The position numbers and the translations under genes were made by a program. The notes below the pieces were generated by a model. That model made no database searches. It was not told the origin of the DNA and saw only the letters and a program-made list of their open reading frames with translations. A DNA stretch of 33,850 nucleotides from a virus, in IMG/VR virus record IMGVR_UViG_3300045996_001459, positions 1-33,850 of that record, one strand, 5' to 3'. Shown in pieces: positions 3,164 through 24,285 of the stretch. How positions within the stretch are numbered: the first letter of the stretch is position 1; each line of letters starts with the position of its first letter.

Positions 3164-4861
3164 TTATTCAGCAGTTAAAAATTTACATTCCATAATGCCG
3201 GTCAAAAAGTCCGGTGTAGCTTCCAGAAGCCATGCGTGCGTGCCCGTAAAATTATCAGGCAGCGTTACTTCATAATATTCGCCAACGTCCTCTGGCATCA
3301 GGTTGTCGGCGTCCAACGGTAGTTTACACGTGATAAGGTGCTGATTTTTCCCGCCAAATTTTGCTATGAGAAAATCGGCAACTGCTTTCGGCAGTCCTGT
3401 AGTCTCTTGTATCTTTAAAACCCACCCTTCCAGATCTGCACCACCTACTTCTTCATACGGCAACGGTGCATTTGTAAGATACAGACCGTCACCATCATTA
3501 ATGTGTACAGCTTCGTGAACTTTCAGATACCCGCGTGTAGCATCGTGATAAAAGAGCTTCCTGTACACCGGGATTGTTTCTGCAAACAGATCCAACGCGC
3601 CGGGGCTTGGATGCGGGTACGTCGGTAAATTGTGAAATATGGCCTTTGGCGCTACGCTCCCATCAGCACGGTGTCCTGAAGAAGTCGCTGTATAGGATTC
3701 AAGGTTATCCGATGGAATATTAGGGAAATCTACCTGTACTTTCTGAATTACATTCGCACACGTTTCTATCGTAAAAGTAGATTCCTGTACTTTTGTAAAG
3801 TCAAGGGCCGTATGGCTTCGCCTGTTTTCATATAGCCGGTGATACTCAATTTCAAACCGGACGCCTTTTTGTTTTGTAGCATCGGCAACACACCGCATCC
3901 GAAATTTTACGCACGTAAAATCACAGAGGTCTTTAATGAACTCCCAGAGAGTTGTGTATTCCCGTATATTCTCGCCATCAATATCATTTGAAAAGAAACC
4001 GGCGTTAAATGAAAGCATCCCGCCAATAATCAGGATTTCATCTACAGGAACAGGCGTTCCCGCCGTAAAAGGATCAGGAAAAAATGCGTTTGAGTGGTCA
4101 TCTAACGGCTCGTAAAACGTGAGCGCGTGAAACGGTGTATTTGTTACTTCCGGAACGGAATTGAGTGTACTGCGAAGGTAGTTCCTTCCGGCAAAACAAT
4201 ATTGGTTTTCAAATGCAGCAAGTAAAAATGTATGCAGGCTGTAAAACTCCATATTCGTGTCAGTCTGCACGTACTTTTGCCGTGTGACCGCACTTTCCGT
4301 GCCTTTATAATCGTAAGCAGTAGTGGATGTGCCAAGCGGTGTAAGTGCAAGCTGAGCCGTAGCAATAGCTTCCGTCGCTGTTTCTTCGGCAACGATCTTT
4401 TCCAACGCAAAGAACTGGTATTCTACCGTTGTTGGCGCGCCGTCCTCAATGGTATATTTCCCCTGTAGTGTTGCCTGTTGCGCTCCGGCAAATTCAAGAT
4501 AATCCTTTACATCACCACCTTCGCCACGATCGGAAAACAGTAAAAACAGGTTTGAATTTGATCCGGAAAACGTTTCAAAATCTTCATCTGCATAAAAAGG
4601 ATTTGCTAAGATTTCCTGAAGGTTTTGAGGAAGTTTGCTATAGTCAAGTTCTACTGTCATTGAAGAACCTAATGCAGCTCCGATCGGCAGGCCTTCCTCA
4701 CCAAACCCGAACTTGGCATTTTTTATAGATAAAAATCCTTCGGAAAATTCATCTTCATTGTCCCAAAAAGCGTAGTGATCGCCTGCCGGACGGATTTCAC
4801 CGCGATAATTCCAGCCGTTATCACCGGTAAAAAGGTGGAAGTATATGCGGTTACGGTCCAT
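3164..4861 (-). CDS. Tail tip / baseplate hub-like protein
   Basis: A 565-residue protein between the distal tail gene and the fibre gene, the place held by tail-associated hub proteins (gp27/gp44-like) in siphophages. It begins with a beta-rich region (residues 1-110), has a long mixed middle, and ends with a domain containing GEYYEVTLPDNFTGTHAW-like strands, consistent with a hub fold that ends in an OB-like domain. No lysozyme or peptidase motif is visible. Its ATG overlaps the previous stop by one base (TAATG), so translation is probably coupled. The name comes from synteny and length rather than a diagnostic motif. Confidence 0.6.
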   Translation of the reverse strand: MDRNRIYFHLFTGDNGWNYRGEIRPAGDHYAFWDNEDEFSEGFLSIKNAKFGFGEEGLPIGAALGSSMTVELDYSKLPQNLQEILANPFYADEDFETFSGSNSNLFLLFSDRGEGGDVKDYLEFAGAQQATLQGKYTIEDGAPTTVEYQFFALEKIVAEETATEAIATAQLALTPLGTSTTAYDYKGTESAVTRQKYVQTDTNMEFYSLHTFLLAAFENQYCFAGRNYLRSTLNSVPEVTNTPFHALTFYEPLDDHSNAFFPDPFTAGTPVPVDEILIIGGMLSFNAGFFSNDIDGENIREYTTLWEFIKDLCDFTCVKFRMRCVADATKQKGVRFEIEYHRLYENRRSHTALDFTKVQESTFTIETCANVIQKVQVDFPNIPSDNLESYTATSSGHRADGSVAPKAIFHNLPTYPHPSPGALDLFAETIPVYRKLFYHDATRGYLKVHEAVHINDGDGLYLTNAPLPYEEVGGADLEGWVLKIQETTGLPKAVADFLIAKFGGKNQHLITCKLPLDADNLMPEDVGEYYEVTLPDNFTGTHAWLLEATPDFLTGIMECKFLTAE

Positions 4862-5355
4862 TATAATTCCACCTGCACAAATGGCAATGCTTCGCGGAAC
4901 CGCATTTCACAGCTGAGAATAATGGATTTTGTTCCGTTCTCATTATCTTCTGTGGATTTTCCCATGATCGCAATCGGAATGGCAAAACCGTCACCATGAT
5001 AGGACAATGCAGGACTGGCCGCCGCTTCATAAGCCGTCAGCTCCAGCCACGTGTATTTTTTACGAAGGATAGTAGCCAATATCCGTTCTTCGTTTATATC
5101 CCAATCCGACGCGCCGTAGGTAACAGGTTCATAGCGTATTTCAAAAGCGCGGCGGGTTCTATTGGGGCCGGACTTCTGCCCGATAATATCAGTGCGCGCG
5201 TCACCTTCCAATAATGTGTTTTCGTATGGCCCTAATATTTTCAGCACACGCGAACCGTAGCCGGTGAATGTTTCGAGTAAGTCTATTTCAATTTCGTCGT
5301 ATCTTCCTACGGTAGTGTCCTGATCTGAATAATGGAGTGTTGCTGTATATGCCAT
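4861..5355 (-). CDS. Putative distal tail protein
   Basis: A 164-residue, beta-rich protein directly after the tape measure gene and before the hub-like gene. This matches the position and size of short distal tail (Dit-like) adaptor proteins, which join the tail tube to the tip. Sequence features are modest: alternating hydrophobic strands, no transmembrane segment, no cysteine cluster. The ATG is 4 bp after the tape measure stop, and the 3' end overlaps the next gene by one base. Function is inferred from order. Confidence 0.5.
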   Translation of the reverse strand: MAYTATLHYSDQDTTVGRYDEIEIDLLETFTGYGSRVLKILGPYENTLLEGDARTDIIGQKSGPNRTRRAFEIRYEPVTYGASDWDINEERILATILRKKYTWLELTAYEAAASPALSYHGDGFAIPIAIMGKSTEDNENGTKSIILSCEMRFREALPFVQVEL

Positions 5356-5358
5356 GAT

Positions 5359-8300
5359 TTACGATCTCCCTGCTAAAGTAAGCGCGTCACGTTTGACTTC
5401 CTTCACTACAGTTCCTGGATCAGCGTGTACGGTGATCTTTGTTGCGCTTGTATGTCTGGTTTTTGAGCTACCGATTTTCTTATTCAGCTCATCAAATTTC
5501 ATTGATAAATGCTGTGTTTGCGAACGGGTTTCTTCGCGTATCGCCTGTAATTCCGCGCGGTGTGATTGCTGCATCAAAACAATACGTTCCTTATCTTCAG
5601 GTTTTATGCGGGAACGGTAAAATTGTTCAGCGTCCCCACCTTTATTAATATGCTCTAATAGCTGCATATTTTTCATTGATGCTTTATGTTCAACGGTATA
5701 TTCAGGCCCTTTCTCGTTCATCAAAACGAGCTGTGGGCCACCCCAAACCATACCGCCTTTTTCACGTTTTTGGAGTCCTGATTCAGCTATACTCACCAAT
5801 CCATACAAAACGCCAGTTAAGCCAGCAGAAGCAATCGGGCCTAATATCGGGCCGAGAGTTTTTATTGATTCGCCAAAAATTCCCGCAACAAAAACAGGTA
5901 TTTGAGATTTTAAAGATTGGAGCGCAATTAATCCGGCCGCATTGGCAAAACTTCCAAGCGTTACAACTTGTGATGTAGCGAATTCAGCAAGCGAAGCGCC
6001 AGCCTGTAATACAGTTTGATTTATTAGTTCAGTACGACCCAAAGCTTTTTGTTCTTCCGTAGCTGTTTCGCTATCCAAAAGCGAAAGGTACTTTTCAGAA
6101 GCGACAGACTGTTTCTGAAGCGTATCTTTTGCAAACTTCGCAGCAGCAGAATTCAGCCCTTTTAACGTTCTCTCTCCGATATCAAACTTCTCACCTTCCA
6201 AATCCTTATCTAATTTCGCACGCTTATTATTCAGGTCATCAATAGATTTTTGATAATCAGCATAAGAAATAACGCGGTTTTTAAGCGAGTTTTTCAGTTC
6301 ATCTTCTGACTTCTGAAGCTCTGACTTTTCCTTATTTATTTTGTCGGTATCAACTTCGGTTTTTTCATTAAAAGCGTCTAACAGCCCGGCTTTTATGTCA
6401 AGTGAGATTCCATAGATTGCATTGGATTCAAGTAAATACTCCTCTTCTGCCGCCGCTTTATCCTTCAGCATTTTTAAAAATGCATCAGTTTCCAAAGCGC
6501 GGTTCCCACGCGCGGCCAATAACTCCGCTTCATAGATTGCGTCAATTTCAGCTAATCGCAACGCACGCTGTATATCCAAGGCCGTGCCTGTTGCATTGAT
6601 CTCAACTAAATTGCGGTCAGTTACATTCTTTTTCGTGAGTTCGGTAAGCTCTTTTTCCTGACGCTGCCGGATAAGTACAGCTGTATTATCTTTAGCAACT
6701 TCCTCTTGAATCCTTTTGAGGTTAGCCCGCGCCGCTGTTACAGCATTTTCATCACTTCCCAAAATTGCCTGAGTAAGTGCCTGTTGCGCGTCAATAACCG
6801 CCTGATTCTTAGTAATATACGTATCAATTTCAGCGGTTTGTTTTGCTTTTAAAAGCTCTAAACGCGCCGTACCGATCTTGTCCTGCGCTGCAAAAGCAGC
6901 TTCAAGCGTAGAAGCATATTTAAGCTCTGATTCAGCTACATCCAGTTTAATCTGAATTGATTTTTCAGCTGCTTCCTGTTCTTTTTGGATGCGCTCTTCT
7001 TCTTTTTTAGCAGATTCAGCCGCGAACTTCCCGCGAATATCTTTGCGCCTTTCAGCGTAAGTTTTTTCAATAGAGGCGATAAGTTTATTAGTAGTTTCAA
7101 CAAACTCTGTTTTTTGAGTGTCAGAAACTTCGCCTTTTTTATTCAGTGCTGTGATTTCAGTAATATCGTCTTTATACTTTTGAACGCGCTCCTGCTGCGC
7201 TTTGTCCAATGCAGCAAGTTCCTTATCCAAGCCTTCCTGCATCCGTAAAAGCTGCTGTTCGTTGCGCTCTGACGTTAACTGATTATTGATTTCGCGGATT
7301 TTATCCGATATATCCTTTAATTTCTCAGGTGGCGGCGGTGCGGGTGGTTTGATTTCATCGGGCTTTGTACTATCATTTGCAGTAACAACAGCTCCCGCAA
7401 TAGTAGCCTTGCGCAAATCAATAAACTTCTGAATAGAAGTTAATACCTTATCGCGGTCAGCGGGTTTAATATCCGAACGTTTTAAAAGCTTCTCCTGGAA
7501 TATCTGCCCTGCCCTGTCTAATTCTTCTGCTGATTTAGCGTTATAAATTGCTCCTGCATATTGCTTTACAAACGCTTCGCCTGCCTGACGCGCGCCGCTT
7601 GTTCCGGTCACGAATTCAGCCGTAGAATTTCCAAGTTTATTCAGCATTCCGACTGCGCCCTTTTCACCACCGCCCGCGAGTGCATCTGCTAAATCGTTTT
7701 CAATTTGCTCTTTTGCTACGTCAATTTTTAAGAATTGCTGTTTTTGAGTAATCTCTTTTGCTTTTTTATCCAGCGCAGTCATTCCATCTTCCAATCGGCG
7801 CAACTCCTCACGTGATAATCCTGCCTGCTTTTGCATATTGGAAAGATTATCACTAAAAGATTTTGTTGAATCAATCAGTCCGGGGTATTGTTTATTAAGC
7901 TGAATGGAAATTTCATTCATTCGCTTCTGTTCTTCAGCTGAACGCTCTGAATTCCGCGCTAATTTTTTATATTCTTCAGCTAATGACTGAGAATTTTTAA
8001 TACTTTTTTGCCGCTCAAGATTAGATTTCTTTTGAGATTCTACAATCTTTAATTCCGCACCGACATCTTCCAGCTTTTCTTCTGCTGAATCATGGAGTGC
8101 ATCGGTCACGCCTTTGATTGCGAACACTAAGCCAGTGAGCCCGGCGACAATTAACACAGCGGGGTTTAACAAAAGGGAAGCGTTCCAACGTTTTGTAGCC
8201 CCATCAGCTACCGTTGTAGTTGCTGTTGTTGTTGCGGTAGCGGCTGACTGTGCGAAAAGCGAAGGCACTAATTTAGATAATATGCTTCCTGCGAAAGTTG

Positions 8301-23027: not shown

Positions 23028-23043
23028 CTCTCCATCTCCTCAT

Positions 23044-23063
23044 ATAATCGGCAGTTAAAAAAT
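23044..23063. repeat. Repeat copy A (TAATCGGCAGTTAAAAAA type)
   Basis: First of three copies of a motif with core ATCGGCAGTTAAAAA. This copy spans the stop codon of the gene at 23055-23294 (read leftward, TTTTTTAACTGCCGAT). The other copies are at 23310-23327 and 23453-23471, on both sides of the tRNA-like gene. Confidence 0.65.
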
Positions 23064-23294: not shown

Positions 23295-23309
23295 ATTCAT
23301 TCTCCGTAA

Positions 23310-23327
23310 TAAATCGGCAGTTAAAAA
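23310..23327. repeat. Repeat copy B, 3' flank of the tRNA-like gene
   Basis: TAAATCGGCAGTTAAAAA, ending 13 bp from the tRNA-like gene. Identical over 18 bases to copy C on the other flank. Confidence 0.7.
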
Positions 23328-23340
23328 TACGCCGGATTTG

Positions 23341-23440
23341 GCGCCACGGCGGGACTCGAACCCGCAACCCAAGCCATTCACAAGGTTAATTACTTCTCGC
23401 TACTTATCGGCCTGCTCTACCACATTGAGCTACGCGACTC
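23341..23440 (-). tRNA. tRNA-His(GUG)-like gene with a 24-nt insertion in the anticodon arm
   Basis: Read leftward from 23440 it shows: G-1 paired to C73 (the tRNA-His identity feature); an acceptor stem of seven positions with one A-G mismatch and two G-U pairs; T8 A9; D arm GCTC/GAGC with a standard 9-nt loop containing GG; A26; T arm GCGGG-TTCGAGT-CCCGC. The anticodon arm GGCCG/TGGCT is split: 24 extra bases (23407-23384) lie between position 31 and the loop TTGTGAA. Removing them leaves T33, anticodon GTG and A37. It may be a degenerate tRNA, a tRNA with an unusual intron-like insert, or a tRNA decoy. The bases after C73 read CAA, so CCA is not cleanly encoded. Confidence 0.7.
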
Positions 23441-23452
23441 CATACCGGCTTA

Positions 23453-23471
23453 TAAATCGGCAGTTAAAAAA
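23453..23471. repeat. Repeat copy C, 5' flank of the tRNA-like gene
   Basis: TAAATCGGCAGTTAAAAAA, beginning 12 bp from the 5' end of the tRNA-like gene and matching copy B over 18 bases. No gene is evident in 23472-23567. Confidence 0.7.
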
Positions 23472-23567: not shown

Positions 23568-23849
23568 TTAAACAAAATTTGCTTTGTTATTTGTAATAAT
23601 GTAATGTGATTTGCACGGAAAATTAAAATTTCCGACGGAAGGCGAAAGCGAAACCTTATCGCCTTTTTCCGTCAAAACCCATTTATACTCTCCGCTCAAC
23701 GGAGTAATAGTTTTACTTCCACACCCGCATAGACAATTATGCACAGCCGTACCGTATTCTTTTGAGATATACAGTTTTCCTTCTTCCAACTCGCGCGGTA
23801 TAAATTCAACAAATACCGGCTCTACATCAACTTGTTTTATAGTTTTCAT
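23568..23849 (-). CDS. DUF6527-like metal-binding protein
   Basis: A 93-residue protein whose central and C-terminal blocks match what I know of DUF6527: LYISKEYGTAVHNCLCGCG (putative zinc ligands His37, Cys39, Cys41, Cys43), then SLSPSVGNFNFPCKSHYII (Cys79, His82). In bacterial genomes DUF6527 genes are often next to E1-like ThiF and ubiquitin-like protein genes, suggesting a part in ubiquitin-like conjugation or defence systems. Here no ThiF, E2 or ubiquitin-like partner is visible, so it stands alone. A GGTGGT touches the ATG. A role in counter-defence is an inference only. The chain ends a little after the second block, slightly short compared with bacterial members. Confidence 0.75.
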   Translation of the reverse strand: MKTIKQVDVEPVFVEFIPRELEEGKLYISKEYGTAVHNCLCGCGSKTITPLSGEYKWVLTEKGDKVSLSPSVGNFNFPCKSHYIITNNKANFV

Positions 23850-23859
23850 ACCACCGTTT

Positions 23860-24285
23860 TTAAAGAGATTCGTGATGACGGTCTGATGACCTTTGATTTA
23901 CTTCCATAAATTGCGCTACTATCGAAAATTCGGTTTCGTATGTGGTTGGAAGTTCTGCGCTCATCGGGTGTGAAAAAACCGTGAACTCCAATTTGCTACC
24001 ACCATAAAGCGCACAAAAAACTTTCTTATCCTCCGGGACTTCACGCCGTAGCCGTTCGGCAAAATCCGTAAGATTTGTGTAGATTCCTAAAGGAGTAAAA
24101 ATCCTATCGCCTTCCGGGTGAAAATGCGTCTTAGCCAGCAGAATGCCGTTTGCAGTAGTGTTGTAGTATCGTTCAAATTCCGATATATCAGTGAAATCAG
24201 AATATGCTTTACTATTATTACATTCTACGTTTGGGCGTTCTTCGATAAAGCTTAAGAATAAGTTTGAAGTCTTTGAATTTTCCAT
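23860..24285 (-). CDS. Hypothetical accessory protein
   Basis: A 141-residue protein without a recognised domain. Residues 30-120 look like an alpha/beta domain (ISEFERYYNTTANGILLAKTHF, GIYTNLTDFAERL, KVFCALYGGSKLEFTVFSHP). It precedes the DUF6527-like gene by 10 bp and could be co-expressed with it. Nothing shows its function. Confidence 0.55.
   Translation of the reverse strand: MENSKTSNLFLSFIEERPNVECNNSKAYSDFTDISEFERYYNTTANGILLAKTHFHPEGDRIFTPLGIYTNLTDFAERLRREVPEDKKVFCALYGGSKLEFTVFSHPMSAELPTTYETEFSIVAQFMEVNQRSSDRHHESL

Follow-up and report, generated by a model that had tools for sequence, protein, structure and literature searches.

The DUF6527 gene and its setting in the phage record

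The gene studied here is an intact open reading frame of 93 codons, running from ATG to TAA, that encodes a DUF6527 protein (Table 1). It lies in a window of 33,850 nucleotides, the whole stretch of DNA analysed, which is at the same time an entire IMG/VR virus record. Terminase_3, Portal_Mu, RecT and PhageMin_Tail proteins are encoded in the window, and integrase-like and LexA/CI-like genes were recognized from their sequences. As read from this gene content, the window is a temperate siphophage, in which the DUF6527 gene is an accessory gene. The gene belongs to a leftward gene run that includes recT, and we infer that it is expressed early, probably on one transcript with the gene directly upstream. 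For the protein encoded by this upstream neighbour, we found no Pfam family, no PHROG and, by a pattern search, no relative in the viral collection. On the other side, between the DUF6527 gene and the next gene, there is a tRNA-like element that scores above the gathering threshold (Rfam tRNA, 32.8 bits). In ARAGORN it appeared only when introns were permitted, and was then called tRNA-His(gtg), its anticodon loop carrying a 24-nt insert. The element and the next small gene are flanked by copies of a repeat, two of them exact and one with 3 mismatches; three matches were obtained in 0 of 100 shuffles.

Table 1. Coordinates of the DUF6527 gene, its conserved blocks and adjacent features in the window
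Feature	Position	Strand	Basis
Gene next upstream of DUF6527, 10 bases between the genes, encoding a 141-aa protein of unknown family	23860..24285	-	ORF
DUF6527 (PF20137), core-only, 93 aa, without C-terminal tail	23568..23849	-	ORF + profile
Codons H37-N-C39-L-C41-G-C43-G44	23718..23741	-	alignment of 117 family members
Second conserved block, codons P70-S71-V72-G73-N74	23628..23642	-	alignment of 117 family members
Third conserved block, codons C79-K-S-H82-Y83, putative metal ligands	23601..23615	-	alignment of 117 family members
tRNA-like element	23341..23439	-	Rfam tRNA
Repeat TTTTAACTGCCGATTTAT, three copies	23043..23060, 23309..23326, 23452..23469	-	

The protein scores 69.7 bits with the Pfam profile of DUF6527, whose gathering cut-off is 23.6; the match (E 2e-19) spans residues 34-91 and profile positions 2-61 of 63. 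The family had been proposed in a sequence-only reading of the locus on the strength of two blocks, both of which are present in the protein (CLCGCG at residues 39-44 and GNFNFPCKSHYII at residues 73-85), and the profile search bears this assignment out. Up to E 10, Pfam gave no family besides PF20137, and on this basis we rejected another zinc- or metal-binding family, the alternative raised in that reading; likewise, no PHROG and no PADLOC model matched. The AlphaFold2 model of the protein is confident and all-beta (pLDDT 96, pTM 0.86), and the viral BFVD model A0A8E7FZU2 superposes on it with TM 0.88-0.92. Among solved structures, the DUF6527 profile had no sequence match, whereas Foldseek searched with the model returned a best E of 1.9. 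A second structural search (VIA) reached Z of at most 2.8, and neither search hit a solved peptidase at a significant level. Six of the ten matches listed were to the middle insertion domain of Legionella MavC/MvcA (6p5h and others), a weak all-beta similarity (Z 2.1-2.8). Since there is no sequence similarity and the Z values are far below a trustworthy level, we do not claim kinship. The missing structural match does not by itself make a case for a new fold.

DUF6527 in bacterial operons and in phages

In bacteria, DUF6527 is found as the third gene of operons (type-1) that begin with a Multi_ubiq ubiquitin-like protein (Ubl, PF14452) followed by a DUF6791-ThiF E1. In every operon examined, the DUF6527 gene was directly 3' of the ThiF E1 gene, with Multi_ubiq ahead, and these three-gene operons confirm the association with ThiF E1 and Ubl genes in bacteria that had been suspected in the sequence-only reading. 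Type-1 operons occur on chromosomes and on plasmids, one plasmid reaching Klebsiella. Their Ubls end in an invariant Ser, not Gly-Gly. The Ubl and E1 genes overlap by 26 bases in most of them (L011, L012, L014-L017, L148 and others) and by 41 bases in L153-L155. Iyer et al. (2006) described the metal-binding signature C-x3-C-x35-38 ... for a conserved protein of their operon type 6e, which they guessed to be an adaptor or to act like an E3 (PMC1779556). The spacing in the window protein, C39-x3-C43-x35-C79-x2-H82, fits type 6e, for which the last pair is printed as H-x2-C (PMC1779556). The window protein is a member of the same Pfam family, with 42-52% identity and the same invariant core residues. 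Unlike the type 6e proteins, it is tail-less, has no Ubl or E1 gene beside it and falls in a clade made up of phage copies only.

A second kind of operon, present in the bacterial family of Rufibacter, consists of a gene for a JAB-ThiF fusion and then a divergent DUF6527. The fusion matches the solved Citrobacter BubCD (9ea4, E 4e-78), and at the level of sequence these operons are those of the Bub pathway. According to an open paper that discusses Bub operons, protection against phage has not been demonstrated for them (PMC13373217). The Bub-type DUF6527 is like the window copy in being tail-less and in having C39/C41/C43, S71, C79 and H82, but it follows a JAB-E1, and H37 and the G73-N74 pair, both of which the stand-alone window copy keeps, have been lost from it. 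The window copy belongs to neither kind of operon. Scans of the whole window record revealed no ThiF and no Multi_ubiq-type Ubl, and the protein ends with the core, which separates it from type-1 copies; the record has no E1, and the protein lies outside the Bub-type clade.

The sequence-only reading had described a single phage copy without the other components. The absence of ThiF and Ubl from the record agrees with this description, but the copy is by no means an isolated one. Scanning viral contigs with a 7-sequence alignment, we detected 68 DUF6527 loci, which together with named phages and the window make up 60 non-redundant groups (90% identity). On these counts, DUF6527 in phages is a widespread core-only subfamily, found in dozens of unrelated phages. 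DUF6527 was already known as a family, and phage copies are present but unremarked in public records. Those of Erwinia phage pEa_SNUABM_29, Burkholderia phage FLC9 and Dulem virus 40, all annotated as hypothetical, are stand-alone and core-only like that of the window (43-51% identity); they come from other phage lineages and have other neighbours.

Partner genes are rare around phage copies. An E1 was present inside the fetched flanks of a single viral locus, L051, whose contig measures 6.5 kb and whose DUF6527 has a tail, and among 40 whole records scanned, one had a ThiF match and one a Ubl-like domain. The ThiF match is on contig G614, the contig of L053 (89484-89702, minus strand), roughly 10 kb from a stand-alone DUF6527. 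On the phage contig of L044, a 147-residue frame (4876-5316, plus strand) has a C-terminal domain similar to Multi_ubiq Ubls (hhalign 96%; with a model trained without this frame, E 7e-4 among 14080 ORFs). It ends in the same invariant C-terminal Ser as the operon Ubls, and no relative of the frame was found in the viral or named-phage collections. Across the 60 groups, there was no convincing recurrent partner gene adjoining DUF6527, and the largest neighbour cluster mixes antisense frames. A gene for a small Cys-rich (CxxC) protein immediately adjoins DUF6527 in four phage groups (L027, L029, L035 and L037). In viral contigs L065, L067 and L069, two DUF6527 copies are about 2 kb apart (4535-4835 and 6896-7285, plus strand). 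Open frames of L086 (3738-4277) and L089 (6695-7234), both on the plus strand, have a CxxC...CxxC zinc-ribbon-like stretch ahead of the DUF6527 core. The divergent DUF6527 of the L137 type had no match in named phages.

The tree of 117 sequences was derived from an alignment with only 89 usable columns, and therefore the deep branching order is unsure. The window falls inside a 22-member phage-only clade (support 100/99) that spans diverse phages, with a Rufibacter prophage copy as sister (98/87); this copy is 73% identical to the window protein over its full length. Bub-type copies form a single clade (100/98). Under midpoint rooting, operonic type-1 copies fall within the phage diversity, and thus the domain could have served phages first. 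The position of the root is not certain, and a test of a single origin of all phage copies did not reject it (p-AU 0.18).

Conserved core and missing tail

The residues C39, C41, G42 and C43 are invariant in all 117 aligned family members, S71 is present in 115 and H82 in 116. Among phage-type copies, H37 and C39/C41/C43 are kept in 64 of 64 and H82 in 63. In 20 phage sequences, C79-x-S81 is changed to Y79-H80-A81 (Y-H-A-H-Y in 19 and Y-H-A-Y-Y in one), a pattern expected if one metal ligand replaces another, Cys by His. The conservation, along with this swap of C79-K-S for Y-H-A, suggests that the Cys/His cluster binds metal. Purifying selection on close phage homologues is strong, with dN/dS of 0.03-0.17 for close pairs within the clade of the window; for the window itself, the nearest pair is saturated at synonymous sites. 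Together with the invariant residues and the identity to the Rufibacter copy, these values put the gene well outside what chance would produce.

The distribution of H37 is largely the inverse of that of the JAB domain. The residue is present in 64/64 phage-type and 43/46 type-1 (JAB-less) copies but in 0/7 Bub-type ones, and every Bub-type sequence has Trp in place of G73. Loss of H37 alongside JAB and its retention where JAB is missing would be expected if H37 took part in deconjugation and JAB could take over that task. However, this pattern amounts to one clade versus the rest, and L153-L155, a clade of JAB-less operons, are likewise without H37. The C-terminal tail, defined as at least 15 residues beyond the core, also divides the copies. 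It is present in 45 of the 46 type-1 operonic copies (15-75 residues; the tail-less one is from Streptomyces) and in none of the 64 phage-type copies, which include one from a bacterial MAG (L019). Of the tail-less phage copies, L055, L087, L074, L080, L086 and L089 are placed among the operonic ones in the tree, and the contigs of L055 and L087 carry a phage primase or portal gene. The association of tail with context is striking but not statistically secure, because the two switch together at only two or three independent places on the tree.

Mobility, possible hosts and role

In Erwinia phage pEa_SNUABM_29, the DUF6527 gene occupies the exact junction of two genes whose counterparts in Salmonella phage SPAsTU are separated by 15 bases. 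The flanks are common to 71 syntenic jumbo phage records, only one of which has DUF6527. Similarly, the window and the locus of its closest homologue have in common only DUF6527 and, weakly, a LexA-like gene among nearby genes. Such apparent cargo behaviour is typical of counter-defence genes but does not prove that DUF6527 is one. As to the hosts, relatives of the window terminase occur in several Bacteroidota genomes. Their identity is 44-52%, some being of partial length, and we rejected naming the host by terminase as even the best relatives are too distant. One of these genomes (G156) also has a type-1 operon (L095). The sequence-only reading had called for a search of likely hosts for such operons. 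In 200 sampled genomes from the family of Rufibacter, a possible host family, DUF6527 is present in 24 and Multi_ubiq in 16 (about 8%), and all 16 Multi_ubiq genomes also carry DUF6527; of the DUF6527 genes, 11 belong to type-1 operons and 5 to operons of the Bub type. Among Bacteroidota, DUF6527 was found in 25 of 395 genomes. Given G156 and the counts for the family of Rufibacter, operon-bearing bacteria do exist among the possible hosts.

Our preferred reading, to which we assign a probability of only about 0.35, is that the window DUF6527 is a counter-conjugation protein that would interfere with a host Ubl pathway through an active core. The phage core would recognize the Ubl or the Ubl-E1 assembly, and its conserved H/C site, probably with a bound metal, would process the Ubl or remove it from targets. 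It would do so without the C-terminal tail of operonic copies, and the phage would presumably benefit. This reading is favoured by the operon partners, the presence of DUF6527 in all 16 Multi_ubiq genomes, the kept H/C core with its Y-H-A swap, the low dN/dS, the loss of the tail, the cargo insertion, the JAB/H37 pattern and the Ubl-like domain of L044. Against it stand the lack of a significant match to any solved peptidase, the confinement of the JAB/H37 pattern to one clade, L153-L155, the small number of tail contrasts, the midpoint-rooted tree with its possible phage ancestry, the statement on Bub operons in PMC13373217 and the low proportion of genomes with Ubl. DUF6527 proteins have been described as peptidases of Ubl conjugates, a description to which we give no evidential weight. 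That the tail-less phage protein is, more specifically, a deubiquitinase-like counter-defence enzyme that strips Ubl, with at least one phage (contig G609) adding a Ubl mimic, seems unlikely to us. Bacterial ubiquitin-like conjugation operons are newly characterized, and the spread of a core-only copy as cargo among phages that are not related would naturally hint at a part for these operons in infection. The window DUF6527, a small protein with a high-confidence model, could help in finding what the family does.

A strong competing explanation, almost as likely as our preferred reading, is that DUF6527 is a metal-binding phage protein with a role unrelated to Ubl, and that the tail was gained after bacterial Ubl operons had taken up the domain. 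The phage lineages are indeed more diverse than the operonic clade and surround it under the midpoint root, although the position of this root is uncertain. Homologues adjoin virion genes in jumbo phages and occur in phages whose records have no Ubl or E1, and most genomes of the sampled host family are without Ubl as well. On the other hand, the neighbours are mostly not conserved and therefore indicate no phage pathway, and the other syntenic Seoulvirus-like records lack the gene, which is more in keeping with optional cargo than with a core role.

Interference with a host pathway might also require no catalysis. The core could occupy the E1/Ubl surface of the host DUF6527, the missing tail blocking productive assembly. 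Such a decoy, which we regard as rather improbable, agrees with the kept core and the absent tail in every phage copy, including operonic-derived ones, and with the 42-52% identity between host and phage cores. Yet a decoy needs surface contacts and not all of the buried or metal-type residues, whereas H37, S71 and the Cys/His set are conserved, even if a structural metal site could account for part of the Cys/His conservation. The proposal of a dominant-negative partner fares poorly if it means a merely dead copy, because the core motif residues are nearly all kept and purifying selection is strong, but a binder could be conserved too. Counter-conjugation, if it takes place, would thus probably proceed through an intact metal site and not by means of a dead decoy. 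The derivation of two or three phage lineages from operonic copies, as it seems from the tree, might even point to a relic, a non-functional piece that was acquired accidentally from a host operon. This is highly improbable and in practice refuted by purifying selection among close homologues: dN/dS is well below 1, the motifs are intact and the phage-only clade of 22 members extends over diverse phages.
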